Shown here: positions 54,945-60,454 of the stretch, piece after piece
How positions within the stretch are numbered: the stretch's first letter is position 1
Layout: every line of letters begins with the position of its first letter
Origin: Alphaproteobacteria bacterium
GTDB lineage: Bacteria; Pseudomonadota; Alphaproteobacteria; Micropepsales; Micropepsaceae
Direction: 5' to 3'
Length of the DNA: 64,000 nt
Assembly (NCBI GenBank): GCA_947474645.1
Contig: CANJJD010000006.1
Span: forward strand, 1 to 64,000
The notes under the pieces: model-generated
Database searches by the model: none
What the model saw: the letters and a program-made list of their open reading frames with translations, nothing else
Told to the model about the DNA's origin: nothing
Position numbers and translations under genes: made by a program

Positions 54945-55853
54945 TCAGATGAAGTTTATCTCAAAAACATAGCCGGCACTGGGACTTCCGGTGCCTTCGA
55001 AACCGGGCGGGCCCACCCCGGCATCGCAGGAGATCAGCTTGCCATTGTGCATGGCCAGGCCATGGGCGTCGGCGGTGCCGTCCAGGAATTCGGCGGTCTC
55101 CAGCAACTGGCCGGTGGTGGCGGAGTATTTCATCAACCCGCAGGTGGTGGTGTGGTGCAGCTTGCCGTTCTGCATCACATAGCGATTGACGTCCGACGAG
55201 CCGGTCACCATCCAGATGGCGCCGCCGGGATGGCGGTCGTCCCAGGCGATGCCGTGCCAGCGCGCGGTGGTGATGGGGATCATGAACTCCGGCGCAAAGG
55301 TCTTGGGGTCAACCCGCAGGATGCCCTTGATGCGGTTGGCCACGATCCACAGCTTGCCCGCATGGAACAACAACCCGTGACAGCCGCCGCCATTGTCGGC
55401 CGGGCCCAGCGGGATCTGGCGATGGCTGACCGTGCGGCCGTTCATGTCCACTTCATAGACGCCTTCGGGCCCGCCATTGGCGCCCATCCAGACGTGACCG
55501 TTGCCAAAAGCCAGACCAGACGTGTTGTAGGAATCGGTCATCACCGTCCTGAGCTTCTTGCCGTTCCAGTCGAACAGCCAGGCGGCTTCCTTCTCATGCT
55601 TGCCGCTCTGGCCGTAACCGGCGGCCTTCTGCTCGCAGACCCAGACGCCTTCGGGCACCACCGCAACGCCATTGGGATAACCCTCCGGCACCTTGAACAG
55701 GTTTCTGGTCGTCACCTTGCGGTGGGGCACGTTCTTGCTCTTCTGCGGCGCCACCGCGCCCAGGTTCTTGCCCTTGGGATAGCCTTGCGCCAGCGCACCG
55801 GTGGCGCCGGCCATTGCGATGCCCGTCAGGAATTCGCGTTTGCCTATGATCAT
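54945..55853 (-). CDS. Exported SMP-30/NHL-like beta-propeller protein
   Basis: The 302-residue protein has an N-terminal signal (KREFLTGIAMAGATGALAQG), possibly Tat-like but without the twin Arg. Repeated propeller strands follow: GVAVVPEGVWVCEQ, GLAFGNGHVWMGANGGPEG, HGLLFHAGKLWIVANR and MWHGIAWDD-type blades. Sequences of this kind belong to gluconolactonase/SMP-30 or NHL folds. No metal triad is confirmed. ATG 55853 begins the signal; a TTG ten codons upstream also fits. The terminator of the next operon lies in the gap before it. Confidence 0.75.
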   Translation of the reverse strand: MIIGKREFLTGIAMAGATGALAQGYPKGKNLGAVAPQKSKNVPHRKVTTRNLFKVPEGYPNGVAVVPEGVWVCEQKAAGYGQSGKHEKEAAWLFDWNGKKLRTVMTDSYNTSGLAFGNGHVWMGANGGPEGVYEVDMNGRTVSHRQIPLGPADNGGGCHGLLFHAGKLWIVANRIKGILRVDPKTFAPEFMIPITTARWHGIAWDDRHPGGAIWMVTGSSDVNRYVMQNGKLHHTTTCGLMKYSATTGQLLETAEFLDGTADAHGLAMHNGKLISCDAGVGPPGFEGTGSPSAGYVFEINFI

Positions 55854-55869
55854 GACTTGCTCCCAAGAA

Positions 55870-55902
55870 ATAAGGGCGCCCACTGATGGTGAGCGCCCTT
55901 TT
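55870..55902 (-). terminator. Terminator of the quinoprotein dehydrogenase operon (minus strand)
   Basis: AAGGGCGCCCAC (55872-55883) pairs with GTGAGCGCCCTT (55889-55900) with one mismatch. On the minus strand it is followed by ATTTCTTG. It lies 20-50 bases beyond the dehydrogenase stop. Confidence 0.75.
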
Positions 55903-55922: not shown

Positions 55923-57851
55923 TCAGTTGGGCAGCGAGAAGGCCACCAACTGATCGGACAGGCGCGGCGTCAGGATGCCGTTGCCGCCGACGGCGAACAC
56001 CACATACTGCTTGCCCTTGTAGGTATAGATGGCGGGCTGCGACACGGCCGGCGCATCCACAATGTGCCTCCACAAGGTGTTGCCGGTCTTGAGGTCGATG
56101 GCGCGCACGCGTGAATCCATCGAGGCGCCGATGAAGACGAGGCCGGCCTTGGTGATGGCCGGAGCGCCGATGGTGATCGAGCCCCAGCTTTCAGGCATGT
56201 AGAAGCCCCACTTCTGGACCTGGCCGAAGGGCTTCTTCCAAAGCAGCTTGCCGGAATTCATGTCGTAGCTGGACAAGGTACCGTAAGGCGGCGTCCAGCA
56301 GGGCATGCCCCACATGTTGAGGAAGTTCTCCAGCTTGAAGCCATAGGCCGAGCCCTGCTGCGCGGCATAGCCATCCTTGTCCCGAAGCGCGCTGCCGTAT
56401 TTCTTGTCGGCGTCGGCACGCGGCACCAGGGAATAGATCTGCGGCACGATGTTAGAGTTCACCACATAGGTATTGGTGGTGGGATCCAGCGCGCCGCCGC
56501 CCCATTCCACGCCGCCCAGGGTCGCGGGCCAGGAAATCGAGCCCCGCACCGACGGCGGCGTATAGCGGCCCTCGTCACGGATGCGCGCCTTCCAGCGGCT
56601 GCATTCCCCGAAGCTGACAATATCGGCCAGCTTGGAAACCGGCGGCATATGTTCGGCGATCAGGGGTTCGGGATACGGCACGAAGGGCTGGGTCTTGGTG
56701 GCGACCTCGCCCTTGATGTCGGAGGCCGGATAGGCCCGCTCCACGATGGGCCAGACCGGCTCGCCGGTGTTGCGGTTCAGGACCACCATCAGGCCCATCT
56801 TGTTGGCCTGGATCAGCGCCGGAATGACCTGGCCGTCCTTCTTGATGTCGAGCAGTGTCGGTGCGGAGTTGATGTCCACGTCCCAGATGTCGTGATGCAC
56901 AAGCTGACGCGACCATTTCACTTCGCCGGTCTCGGCATTCACCGCCACGGTGGCGGTGGCATAAGGCATCTCCGTCAACCGGTCGCCGCCATAATAGTTC
57001 GGGCTGGGCGAAGAGGTCGGCAGGAAGGCCAGGCCCGTTTCGGGGTCCACCGAAATGCCGGCCCAGACATTGGCGGTGCCGGTCTGGTTCTCCATCTCCG
57101 GCGGAATGATGTTGAAGGTCCATTTCAGCGCGCCGGTGCGGGCATCGATGCCATAGACAGTGCCGGGATTCTCGGTCTTGTAGACCCAGTCATTGCCGGC
57201 CCAGCCCAGGATCAGCGTGTCCTTGTAGACCGCGGGCGGCTGCAGCAACCCGATCTTCCACTTGGAGTTCTTGGGCGCCCAGGCATTGACGTCCACCACG
57301 CCGTTCTTGCCGAAGCCGGCGCAGGGCTTGCCGCTGTCGGCATCCACGCCATGCAGCGTGCCGGTCATGGTGCCGACATAGACGATCTTTTGGCAGGGGC
57401 CGGCGGTGGGGGCGGATGCCGCCCAATAGGCGACGCCGCGATTCTTCAGGCCCTGGTTTTCGGGCGGGCCTTCGCCGCCATTGCTGGCATAGGTCCACTT
57501 GGTCTTGCCGGTGTCCGGCTCGACCGCGACGATGCGGTACCAGGGCGTGCCGACATAGACGGTGTTGTTGACGAACAAGGGCGTGGCGCCCCAGGTGGTC
57601 GAGCGTTCGCCGCTGGACACATCGCCGGTGTGCATTTCCCAGGCCATCTTCAGGTTCTTCACGTTTTCGGGCGTGATCTGGGTGGCGGTGGAATATTTCT
57701 GCGCCTGCTGGTTGCCGCCGAACGCGTCCCACACCTGGGGGGGATCGTTGTTGGGACCCTGCGCGGTGGCGCGCTGGGCCGGCATCAGGGTGACGGCGGC
57801 GAGCGCGGCCGCGAGGCCCGCAGCGCCAAGGATGAAAGCTTTAATCTTCAT
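55923..57851 (-). CDS. PQQ-dependent dehydrogenase (membrane quinoprotein alcohol/glucose dehydrogenase type)
   Basis: The 642-residue exported protein has a signal peptide (MKIKAFILGAAGLAAALAAV) and an eight-bladed quinoprotein propeller, with the tryptophan-docking repeats (GKTKWTYASNGGE, GALKWTFNIIPPE, GEVKWSRQLVHHDIWDVDI, GKLLWKKPFG, GNTLWRHIV). The dehydrogenase family core is visible in GLLQPPAVYKDTLILGWAG and LVHHDIWDVDINSAP. There is no cytochrome-c domain. The substrate is unknown. The start overlaps the end of the upstream membrane gene by 11 bases, so the two are translated together. Confidence 0.9.
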   Translation of the reverse strand: MKIKAFILGAAGLAAALAAVTLMPAQRATAQGPNNDPPQVWDAFGGNQQAQKYSTATQITPENVKNLKMAWEMHTGDVSSGERSTTWGATPLFVNNTVYVGTPWYRIVAVEPDTGKTKWTYASNGGEGPPENQGLKNRGVAYWAASAPTAGPCQKIVYVGTMTGTLHGVDADSGKPCAGFGKNGVVDVNAWAPKNSKWKIGLLQPPAVYKDTLILGWAGNDWVYKTENPGTVYGIDARTGALKWTFNIIPPEMENQTGTANVWAGISVDPETGLAFLPTSSPSPNYYGGDRLTEMPYATATVAVNAETGEVKWSRQLVHHDIWDVDINSAPTLLDIKKDGQVIPALIQANKMGLMVVLNRNTGEPVWPIVERAYPASDIKGEVATKTQPFVPYPEPLIAEHMPPVSKLADIVSFGECSRWKARIRDEGRYTPPSVRGSISWPATLGGVEWGGGALDPTTNTYVVNSNIVPQIYSLVPRADADKKYGSALRDKDGYAAQQGSAYGFKLENFLNMWGMPCWTPPYGTLSSYDMNSGKLLWKKPFGQVQKWGFYMPESWGSITIGAPAITKAGLVFIGASMDSRVRAIDLKTGNTLWRHIVDAPAVSQPAIYTYKGKQYVVFAVGGNGILTPRLSDQLVAFSLPN

Positions 57852-58227
57852 CTTCGACCTCATCAATCTCAACACTGCGATCGGCGGCATCGGCGATCAC
57901 ATTCATCAGCCAGCCGATCAACGCCAGGGCCTGGGCGGCCATGATGACGGGGCTTTCCAGGAAATAGCCGGCGACGGACGAGCCGATAATGTCCAGCAGA
58001 ATGGACACGACCAGAAAGCCCTGCAGGAAACAGGAGCGGTTGGGCACCATGGCCATGGCCAGCGAGGCCAGAAGCATCAGGGCCGCGGCCCCAGCTACCA
58101 GGATGACACCGCCGGTGCCGATCAGGCCCGTTTTGGGCGTGTAATAATCATAGACGCAGATGGCGATGGTGATCAGCGATGCCAGCATGATCAGCCACGC
58201 GCCCCGCGTGGAATGTCTTTGAGTCAA
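57841..58227 (-). CDS. Small four-helix membrane protein, probable membrane partner of the quinoprotein dehydrogenase
   Basis: The 128-residue protein has four hydrophobic helices (WLIMLASLITIAICVY, GVILVAGAAALMLLASLAMA, FLVVSILLDIIGSSVAGY, IMAAQALALIGWLMNVI) and an acidic C-terminus (EIDEVEDED). Membrane-bound glucose dehydrogenases carry a comparable helical bundle fused to the N-terminus of the propeller; here a separate protein could serve this role. TTG 58227 is preferred, with GGGGAGGGG five bases upstream; a TTG at 58242 is also in frame. Confidence 0.65.
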   Translation of the reverse strand: MTQRHSTRGAWLIMLASLITIAICVYDYYTPKTGLIGTGGVILVAGAAALMLLASLAMAMVPNRSCFLQGFLVVSILLDIIGSSVAGYFLESPVIMAAQALALIGWLMNVIADAADRSVEIDEVEDED

Positions 58228-58321
58228 CGGCCCCTCCCCCAAATACAGGACTTGTTTTGCGGCGATCCTAGCGGGCTTTGCCCCGGACGCAAAACCGGCT
58301 TTCTTCGCAATAGCAGCAATT

Positions 58322-58380: not shown

Positions 58381-59415
58381 CTAGTGCAGCGTAACCTTCT
58401 GCACCCGCCAGTTGCCCATCTCGGCGACATAGAGCTGGTTGGCGGTACGGCAGTCGATGGCGTTCACGCCATTGAATTCCCGGATCGGCAGCCCGGCCCG
58501 GCCGAACCGGCCCGTCACGGTGCCGTTCAGTTCCAGGCGATAGATTTCCCCGCCCGCATCGATGTCGTTGGCCGGGTTGGAGTTGGAGGCAAAGAGATAC
58601 TGGTGCGCGCCCGGCGAAATGCAGATCGCCTGGGGATTGCCGGCGGTGGTGATGCTGCTTTTGAAAGCGCCGTTATTGTCGAATACCTGGATGCGATTGT
58701 TGCCCCGGTCGGCGACATAGACATTGCCGGCCGCATCCAGCGCAATGCTTTGCGCCGCCTTGAACTGGCCCTCGGCGCTGCCGCGCGAGCCCCAGCTTTT
58801 CACGAACACGCCGTCGCGGGTGAACTTGGCGACGCGGGCATTGCCGGTGCCGTCGGCGACGAAGATATTGCCGTCATTGTCCCAGGCCACATCGGTCGGC
58901 CCTTCGAACAGGTCGGCCTGCATGCCCGAAGCTGGGGGCGCACCAGCAGGCGCCCGGCCCATATTGGGCTGGGCCGGCACTTCCACCGATTCCGGCTTGC
59001 GACCCAGCATCAGCAGGATGCGCAACTGGGGATCGAACTTGATCACCATGCCGCTATAGGCATCCACGATCCAGACATTGTCGTTCCTGTCCACCCGCAC
59101 CGCGGCGGCGGCCAGCGCGCCATACAGGTTCTTGCCCACCGAGCGGACATATTTTCCGTTTCCGTCGAACTCGGTCAGCACCGAACCGCCGCGCACGAAG
59201 GGACGCGCACCGCCCAACGTCGCCACCGGCGTGCCGGTGCGCGAATAAACAAAGACGTGACCCTTGGAGTTGGTGGCGACACCAGCCACGGCGCCAAAGA
59301 AGGTGTCGCGCGGCAATTGCAGCGTTTCAGCCGCGGTATAATTGATTTCCTGGGCAGCGGCGGGAACCGCCAGGCAGGCGGCCGCGGCGAGCAGCAAGGT
59401 TGCGAGACGCTTCAT
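58381..59415 (-). CDS. Exported NHL/PAL-like beta-propeller protein, degenerate paralogue
   Basis: The 344-residue protein has a signal peptide (LATLLLAAAACLAVPAAAQ) and a six-bladed NHL propeller like peptidyl-alpha-hydroxyglycine alpha-amidating lyase (PAL): GVATNSKGHVFVYSRTG, VRVDRNDNVWIVDA, PTDVAWDNDGNIFVADG, NVYVADRGNNRIQVF. Residues that would bind zinc or catalyse in PAL are missing. The blade His positions read Ala (AAAAVRVD), Gln (AAQSIALD) and Asn (FNGVNAID), and DGYCN is DGTGN. It is one base from the intact paralogue upstream and likely a non-enzymatic binding protein. Confidence 0.8.
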   Translation of the reverse strand: MKRLATLLLAAAACLAVPAAAQEINYTAAETLQLPRDTFFGAVAGVATNSKGHVFVYSRTGTPVATLGGARPFVRGGSVLTEFDGNGKYVRSVGKNLYGALAAAAVRVDRNDNVWIVDAYSGMVIKFDPQLRILLMLGRKPESVEVPAQPNMGRAPAGAPPASGMQADLFEGPTDVAWDNDGNIFVADGTGNARVAKFTRDGVFVKSWGSRGSAEGQFKAAQSIALDAAGNVYVADRGNNRIQVFDNNGAFKSSITTAGNPQAICISPGAHQYLFASNSNPANDIDAGGEIYRLELNGTVTGRFGRAGLPIREFNGVNAIDCRTANQLYVAEMGNWRVQKVTLH

Positions 59416-59416
59416 G

Positions 59417-60454
59417 TTACTTGCCCCCCTTCAGGACGAACTTCTGCATGCGCCAGGATTCAATCTCGCCGGCGATGATCTGGTTGGGATTGCGGCAATC
59501 CATCATGTGGACCACCTGGAAGCCGGGCTCCAGCTTGCCGGCGCGGCCGAACTTGCCGACCACCGTGCCGTCCAGTTCCATCTTGTAGATCTGGCCGCCG
59601 ATCTTCCAGCTTCCCGGCGGATTGCCGTTGGGATTGGAGTTGGTCGCGAACAGATACTGGTGCGGGCCTTCGGAGATGCAGGCCGACCAGGCGCTGCCGA
59701 CATTGTTGTAGCTCGTTTTCCATTTCAGGTTGTTGTCCAGCACCACGTAGCGGGCATTGCCGCGATCGGCGACATAGACGTTGCCGGCATGATCCACCTG
59801 CAATCCGTGCGGCAGGTTGTATTCATTCTCGCCCTTGCCGACCTTCTCTCCGCCATTCTGGGCCAGGAAGCGGCCATTGCGGTCATACTTGACCACGCGG
59901 TTGTTGCAGTAGCCGTCACCGATAAAGATGTTGTCCTGCTGGTCCCAGGCGACATCGGTGGGGCGGCACAAAGTATATTTCTCGGCCGGCGCGTTAGGGC
60001 CCTTGGGCGAAGCGATCGGCCCCAAAGCGGCGTCCGGATGACGGCCGATCACCATCAGCACCTTGGTGCCGCTGGGATTGAACTTGGTGACGACGTTGGT
60101 GCCCTCGTCCACCGTCCAGATATTGTCGTGACGGTCGATCCGCACCGAATGGGCGAACATGAAGCCGTAGAAATCCTTGCCGATTTCCTTGATGAACTTG
60201 CCGTTCTGGTCGAACTCCCACAGTCGGGTGTTGGGACCGCGGAAGAAGGCGAAGATGTGGCCCTTGGAATTGGTGGCGACGCCTTGCAGCTCGCCCATGT
60301 AATCGCCGGCGGGAATGCCATGGAAAAAGCCCGGCACCGCCTCATAGGCGAGGTCGGGCGCGCTGGCATAGGCCGTGGCCGCGACCTGCGCGGACGCCGA
60401 CAGCGTGCTGAACAACAAGGAAACCGCGGCCGTCGCCGCCAGATACGCCTTCAT
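59417..60454 (-). CDS. Exported PAL-like beta-propeller lyase (peptidyl-alpha-hydroxyglycine alpha-amidating lyase family)
   Basis: The 345-residue protein has a signal peptide (LAATAAVSLLFSTLSASAQ) and six NHL blades. It retains the PAL signature: GVATNSKGHIFAFFRGP, FAHSVRIDRHDNIW, PTDVAWDQQDNIFIGDGYCNNR split as PTDVAWD and DGYCNNRVV, LPHGLQVD, VYVADRGNARY, and VVHMMDCR. Three His (AHS, PHG, VHM) and the Tyr of DGYC match the zinc ligands and catalytic Tyr known in rat PAL. In animals PAL releases glyoxylate from hydroxyglycine peptides; a bacterial substrate is unknown. Confidence 0.8.
   Translation of the reverse strand: MKAYLAATAAVSLLFSTLSASAQVAATAYASAPDLAYEAVPGFFHGIPAGDYMGELQGVATNSKGHIFAFFRGPNTRLWEFDQNGKFIKEIGKDFYGFMFAHSVRIDRHDNIWTVDEGTNVVTKFNPSGTKVLMVIGRHPDAALGPIASPKGPNAPAEKYTLCRPTDVAWDQQDNIFIGDGYCNNRVVKYDRNGRFLAQNGGEKVGKGENEYNLPHGLQVDHAGNVYVADRGNARYVVLDNNLKWKTSYNNVGSAWSACISEGPHQYLFATNSNPNGNPPGSWKIGGQIYKMELDGTVVGKFGRAGKLEPGFQVVHMMDCRNPNQIIAGEIESWRMQKFVLKGGK

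Follow-up and report, generated by a model that had tools for sequence, protein, structure and literature searches.

The window analysed here, a stretch of 64,000 nucleotides, carries two adjoining genes for beta-propellers that resemble peptidyl-alpha-hydroxyglycine alpha-amidating lyase (PAL). One retains the catalytic residues of the enzyme and the other appears to have lost most of them, which raises the question of why such a pair is kept and what it might do. A first-pass annotation of the sequence had described the two as tandem six-bladed PAL-like propellers, and both open reading frames were located: UP (59417..60454, minus strand), a 345-aa PAL-like six-bladed NHL propeller that is putatively active, and DN (58381..59415, minus strand), its 344-aa degenerate paralogue. 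Six blades are present in the predicted UP model. UP precedes DN with one base between the UP stop and the DN ATG, a spacing that fits co-expression, and a Shine-Dalgarno-like AAGGGGGG of DN, read by eye, lies within the 3' end of UP (59424..59431, minus strand). The proteins are 45% identical to each other. By eye, both N-termini resemble a Sec signal, and both proteins are probably secreted.

Pfam detected NHL repeats in UP and DN, together with DUF5128 (6-bladed beta-propeller) above cut-off in each, while no NCBIfam family exceeded its cut-off in either protein. NHL and DUF5128 were the sole Pfam or NCBIfam families above cut-off for UP. DN also matched the SGL family PF08450 (SMP-30/gluconolactonase) with 27.7 bits against a cut-off of 26.3, UP staying below it at 19.0; the match covers about 100 residues and perhaps reflects shared propeller repeats. 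The source genome (2.64 Mb, 99.6% complete) contains 18 NHL matches, and its closest named records are metagenome-assembled genomes (MAGs) of Alphaproteobacteria.

How far UP resembles a genuine PAL was examined by sequence and structure comparison. For UP residues 75-210, the top PDB sequence match was rat PAL, 3fvz (E 5.5e-13), with the chain index plus 491 giving the rat numbering. Designed Pizza proteins and Thin outscored 3fvz, through repeated matches, when full-length UP was the query, and other NHL domains also outscored it when the profile A1 was used. All motifs named in the first-pass annotation were found in UP, starting at residues 100 (FAHSVRID), 180 (DGYCNNR), 214 (LPHGLQVD), 228 (VADRG) and 314 (VVHMMDCR), with the expected His, Tyr-Cys and Arg. 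Alignment to 3fvz places His102 (60149..60151), Tyr182 (59909..59911) and His216 (59807..59809), all on the minus strand, on rat His585, Tyr654 and His690, and Cys163 and Tyr182-Cys183 align on the rat FC..GYC stretch (Tyr654/Cys655). Arg231 (59762..59764, minus strand) is matched to rat Arg706 through its spacing from His216 and the span of the 3fvz match. His316 (59507..59509, minus strand) is assigned to rat His786 by blade register and its strand position in the model; it has no direct alignment to 3fvz, and the C-terminal fragment and its own profile match other NHL domains in the same register. Arg72 presumably corresponds to rat Arg533, and the roles of rat His585, His690, His786 and Arg533 are assumed here as background.

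In the UP model (pLDDT 87.2), His102, His216 and His316 each stand second in the first strand of their blades (2, 4 and 6, respectively), with strands grouped by us. The fold of this model matched 3fvz with a Z of 33.1 (rmsd 2.6, 285 residues aligned), with Thin level at Z 33.3. His216 additionally aligns with a His of the designed Pizza6-SH, whose structure with Zn2+ is, by its title, 6rej. Human PAL is described as having a catalytic dyad of Tyr651 and Arg703 (rat 706), and replacing the Arg of rat PAL by Ala lowers activity by 97% (PMC10303134).

The proposed fit to rat PAL stood for the three His, Tyr-Cys and Arg, by alignment, register or spacing as given above, but UP differs from the rat enzyme at one further site. 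Met317 follows the third His of UP where the rat enzyme has Asp, the rat MPHDI being the place that matches VVHMM by register and not by direct alignment. We take this residue, rat Asp787, to belong to the Ca site, and a Met there counts against strict PAL identity. Among the features that mark a PAL, UP has the six-bladed NHL fold, three His in blades 2, 4 and 6 and the Tyr/Arg dyad, as judged from residues and register, and lacks the Ca-site Asp and, within the source genome as searched with PF03712 and PF01082, a PHM partner. UP is best called PAL-like, its residue set suggesting PAL-type chemistry.

DN was said to have lost every one of these residues, which proved correct for the three His and the Tyr and incorrect for the arginines. 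Ala104 (59104..59106), Gln222 (58750..58752) and Asn318 (58462..58464) stand at the first, second and third His sites and Thr190 (58846..58848) at the Tyr site, all on the minus strand; Arg237, the Arg of VADRG, and Arg59, in the place of UP Arg72, are still there. The predicted DN model is a full propeller (pLDDT 85.6), matching 3fvz with Z 33.7 and Thin with a higher Z of 36.1. Reading function from the fold alone was rejected, as Thin, a eukaryotic NHL domain, is level with or above PAL for both models.

The first-pass annotation had proposed looking for the pair and its degeneracy pattern in other genomes, and both recur. Named genome contigs were scanned with UP-derived patterns, a search aimed at close relatives, which yielded 54 loci, 46 of them with UP by score. 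DN is next to UP on the same strand in 45 of these 46, a DN cut by the contig end still being scored as DN, and the 46th UP (L108) ends at a contig edge. The eight loci outside this count comprise three in which the contig cuts UP (L099, L100, L102) and five PAL-like loci that are not UP (L103-L107). In a set of 147 genomes including the source, which overlaps with the named-contig scan, 31 match UP at E<=1e-40 and 19 of these have a match of at least 60% identity, that of G018 being split over two contigs. Identical sequences were merged at a later step. The DN-led alignment A2 matched 16 of 101 relatives at E<=1e-100, 13 of them twice, side by side; G018, G037 and G052 gave one match each, which, so far as their loci reveal, lies at a contig end or split.

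Beyond the close relatives, 297 genomes were searched from the phylum of G169, the genome that holds L084, a Bryobacterales record. Fourteen matched A2 at E<=1e-90, and 17 stretches from them contained 17 DN, 16 full UP, one cut UP and one PAL-like singleton. Of evenly sampled genomes, three of 385 from the class matched A1 at 1e-80 (G000, G031 and G025, the last through a PAL-like gene outside the pair), and the one genome of 398 across the phylum that matched A2 at 1e-90 was the source genome. The pair is thus patchy, occurring in the source family, in some other Alphaproteobacteria records and in some Acidobacteriota. No DN without an adjoining UP was found in the places examined, unless the contig ended there. 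The description of two PAL-like propellers in tandem, one enzyme-like and one degenerate, is borne out by the recurrence of the pair in records, mainly of MAGs, from Alphaproteobacteria and Acidobacteriota. The fact that related bacteria hold both genes side by side suggests that the two proteins act together. One locus, L131, has two UP-DN pairs in tandem (L131:2050-6676), both UP copies with Cys for Arg72.

Residue conservation was followed in 66 UP and 67 DN sequences. His216, His316 and Arg231 are present in all 66 UP, where the UP/DN labels for L129-L145 were themselves set by residue 316. His102 and Tyr182 each occur in 65 of 66, the single gaps being the cut row L129 and L096, which is without the Tyr182 stretch. 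Arg72 is kept in 63 of 66, with two Cys (both from the diverged L131) and one gap. The position after the third His is Met in 49, Gln in 9, Gly in 5, Glu in 3 and Asp in none, and the Cys pair 163/183 is retained in just 38 of the 66. The UP orthologue at L096:1269-2315 is missing the stretch that would hold Cys163 and Tyr182, through a deletion or an assembly fault.

DN sequences have no His at the 102 site (0/67) or the 316 site, where Asn (62), Thr (4) and Ser (1) are found. Loss elsewhere is uneven: 11 of 67 have the Tyr, 26 a His at the 216 site, 13 an Arg at the 231 site and 64 an Arg at the 72 site. A single DN combines the middle His, Tyr and Arg, and the whole set occurs in none. Cys259 and Cys320 are shared by both classes (66/66 each in UP; 67/67 and 66/67 in DN). 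Since the pattern recurs across all these sequences and nearer PAL-like proteins outside the pair retain the residues, it is more than chance. The near-constant Asn318, together with an Arg71 found in 66 of 66 DN, could mean that DN has catalytic activity of its own, at a novel site formed by Asn318, Arg59 and Arg71. We consider this quite improbable, as the first-His and Tyr sites of DN vary widely, with 11 residue types at each.

A tree of 90 chosen rows was computed by a quick method with SH-aLRT support, with nine catalytic-region columns masked, including 316. It recovered UP (31 rows) with 97, DN (32 rows) with 91 and UP plus DN with 98, so that UP and DN come out as sister clades even with the catalytic columns masked. 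Among PAL-like rows that do not belong to the pair, the nearer ones hold the residue set where uncut, as do two Caballeronia genes, and DN therefore probably lost these residues. On the simplest reading, there was a single duplication followed by residue loss in DN, a polarity that depends on rooting with other PAL-like rows, some of them long-branched. Against five relatives, a simple counting method gave dN/dS of 0.12-0.28 for UP and 0.18-0.43 for DN (dS 0.56-0.89), and both genes look to be under purifying selection.

Remoter PAL-like paralogues have His for Tyr, and Glu or another residue for the third His. DGH (His for Tyr) with Glu for the third His was seen at L070:6755-7957, L094:7203-8411, L068:6384-7757, L120:2535-3701 and L121:2240-3304. 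A third PAL-like gene stands directly before UP in L070, L094 and L068 and at another place in the cluster in L084. In L116, L117, L118 and L119, from the same genus, two to four PAL-like genes lie near each other, all with the catalytic set.

Given the many NHL matches in the source genome and the existence of relatives with tandem PAL-like genes, the pair might reflect an ordinary expansion of the NHL family, with UP and DN functionally unlinked. This reading appears very improbable to us. The pairing recurs in two phyla, the two genes form sister clades with class-specific loop lengths, and the fetched full-length tandem PAL-like genes of the same genus hold all residues.

The loops in question start at the first Arg of the active site and extend to the Asp position that follows it. 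In the window, the UP loop comprises 11 residues (Arg72-Asp82; 60209..60241, minus strand) and the DN loop 26 (Arg59-Asp84, with the invariant Arg71; 59164..59241, minus strand). Across the collection, with the truncated UP of L129 and also L045 set aside, the loop is 11 (63 sequences) or 12 (2 sequences) residues in 65 UP and 26 in 66 of 66 DN. All 19 PAL-like rows measured from outside the pair, none of them from Caballeronia, have a loop of 20. Position 13 of the DN loop, Arg71, is the residue that is Arg in every DN counted, and Arg77 is kept in 62 of the 63 UP loops of 11. The same loop has become shorter in one copy and longer in the other, which invites the idea of a joint UP/DN site.

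Taken further, this idea would make the pair an obligate enzyme-pseudoenzyme lyase. The UP site, opened by its 11-residue loop, would be completed in trans by the 26-residue Arg71 loop of DN, and the pair would act on carbinolamides made elsewhere, its own hydroxylating partner being absent. We offer this as a speculation with a distinctly low chance of being correct. DN might alternatively be an independent binder of the same or a related carboxylate that makes no contact with UP, their adjacency reflecting shared regulation. The Arg72 equivalent kept in 64 of 67 DN and its own invariant Arg71 speak for such a role. We nevertheless judge it unlikely, since a DN apart from UP was encountered solely at contig ends in the places examined and the two genes are spaced by one base. 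From the pairing, the spacing and the loops, we instead infer a UP-DN complex.

What UP might act on was approached through its neighbourhood and the hydroxylating enzyme PHM. It had been noted that no PHM gene is visible nearby, and this holds genome-wide: the PHM domains PF03712 and PF01082 gave no match at E<=1 in the source genome. The PF03712 search works, as it gave matches elsewhere among the genomes searched; for PF01082 the control genomes gave none above cut-off. Among pair-bearing genomes, 28 of 37 have a PF03712 match at E<=0.01, 24 of them above cut-off, mainly in Acidobacteriota. PHM as a general partner was rejected, as none of 35 stretches around PHM-like genes picked regardless of the pair (4.7-13.5 kb in length, a few of them truncated where the contig stops) has a PAL-like ORF; a 36th, L146, had been picked for its pair. 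A PHM-like gene is found downstream of the pair in two loci (L084; L137, which equals L146) among 108 loci and L129-L145, which is too few to claim a link. These genes, at L084:11744-13135 and L146:5235-6719, both encode a cytochrome-c-like N-terminal stretch. By eye, a cytochrome-c-like CxxCH lies near the N-terminus of the PHM-like proteins from L109, L110, L084 and L146/L148, those of L148 and L110 being one gene and that of L109 being split over two ORFs. A ureidoglycolate lyase route was likewise dismissed, PF04115 giving no match at E<=1 in the source genome and a match in a control genome.

A PQQ dehydrogenase and a GntR/FCD regulator lie near the pair in seven close alphaproteobacterial loci, six of which also have an MFS transporter, and this block was not found at other pair loci. 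A quinoprotein-dehydrogenase-like ORF occurs in 12 of 46 loci, five of which do not belong to the close set; its place and strand vary, and the flanks compared differ in length. No neighbour is common to most loci, and the shared neighbourhood was discarded as a substrate clue. In the window, the PQQ dehydrogenase (55923-57890, minus strand) matches PF01011 with 594.8 bits, TIGR03074 staying below cut-off. Upstream of it is a 133-aa protein (57841-58242, minus strand) that looks membrane-bound by eye. Together (55923-58242), the two look like a membrane dehydrogenase of the glucose type in split form, and they stand beside the pair in seven and eight close loci, respectively. A 312-aa protein (54945-55883, minus strand), conserved in seven close loci, has no Pfam family above cut-off and a weak likeness to virginiamycin B lyase (E 0.03).

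These data bear on whether UP uses its PAL-type site for other chemistry, as a metal-dependent propeller enzyme (a lactonase, a hydrolase or another lyase) acting on a sugar- or aromatic-derived substrate. The source genome is without a PHM domain or PF04115 match, the dehydrogenase-regulator block with its transporter adjoins the pair in the close loci, and the Asp of the rat Ca site is replaced, all of which would suit such an enzyme. It is nonetheless hard to square with the three His, Tyr and Arg231 being kept throughout the 66 UP save in the cut and the deleted sequence, and with the scattered occurrence of the quinoprotein-like ORF. We see this reading as possible but rather doubtful.

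The explanation that we favour, with about an even chance of being right, draws on the residues, pairing, sister clades and purifying selection read from the sequences themselves. UP would be a metal-dependent PAL-type lyase and DN its dead, co-translated partner subunit. Secretion, metal, chemistry and substrate are what we infer on top of these observations. UP would be periplasmic or secreted, with a Zn-like ion bound at the propeller axis by the His of blades 2, 4 and 6. The base would be Tyr182, together with Arg231, and Arg72 and Arg231 would grip the carboxylate of the substrate. An N-acyl-alpha-hydroxyglycine-like carbinolamide would thus be cleaved to glyoxylate and an amide, and it would come from a source other than a PHM of the same genome. 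A tandem duplication predating the spread of the pair would have produced DN, which would then have lost its metal site and catalytic base and would now serve UP by capping it, stabilising it or setting its specificity. Its 26-residue loop with the invariant Arg, lying beside the shortened loop of UP, would perhaps be the route of its action. Met317 of UP, the fold match to Thin, the Cys pair kept in 38 of 66 UP, the Cys at the Arg72 site in L131, the missing Tyr stretch of L096, the lack of a neighbour common to most loci and the uneven decay of DN count against this explanation.

Together, our results indicate that the recurrent PAL-like pair, one member enzyme-like and the other pseudoenzyme-like, is real. 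It offers a natural control, in which a propeller with a conserved site is accompanied by a sister whose site, by the tree, was lost once, before the pair diversified. Despite that loss, across two phyla DN stays adjoining UP and under purifying selection. This makes two questions testable: which carbinolamides bacteria might cleave in the absence of PHM, and how a dead copy supports a live enzyme. Among open-licence papers, we found none that states the role of bacterial PAL-like proteins or describes a bacterial PAL-like pair.

Several known systems invite comparison. The NHL domains of TRIM71, Thin and Brat share the fold, Thin giving the top structural Z for DN, but they are eukaryotic binding domains, and we know of no lyase of the PAL kind among them. 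Ureidoglycolate lyase is a hemiaminal lyase, which speeds a hemiaminal-type breakdown such as that proposed for UP. The N-(hydroxymethyl)guanidine lyase MgdL is another lyase of this kind (PMC12508155). An Asp/Arg pair is proposed for MgdL, and the words 'propeller' and 'NHL' are absent from the MgdL paper, in contrast to UP (PMC12508155).

The bacterial PAL-like proteins outside the pair, from the same genus and from Caballeronia megaplasmids, have the same fold family and residue set as UP. They differ in having no adjoining DN in those examined and, in the rows measured outside Caballeronia, a loop of 20 residues, against 11-12 in UP and 26 in DN. A plasmid search gave five matching records, all Caballeronia, with 36-42% identity; L184 and L185, both megaplasmids, each have a PAL-like ORF in which the catalytic residues are complete, and neither has another such ORF within 6 kb of it. 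These Caballeronia genes are a possible system for biochemistry. Rat PAL itself shares with the UP of the window the six-bladed NHL propeller, three His in register, the Tyr, the Arg and the Cys pair. UP departs from it in a source genome without a PHM domain, in the change from Asp to Met after the third His, and in the degenerate paralogue that adjoins it.
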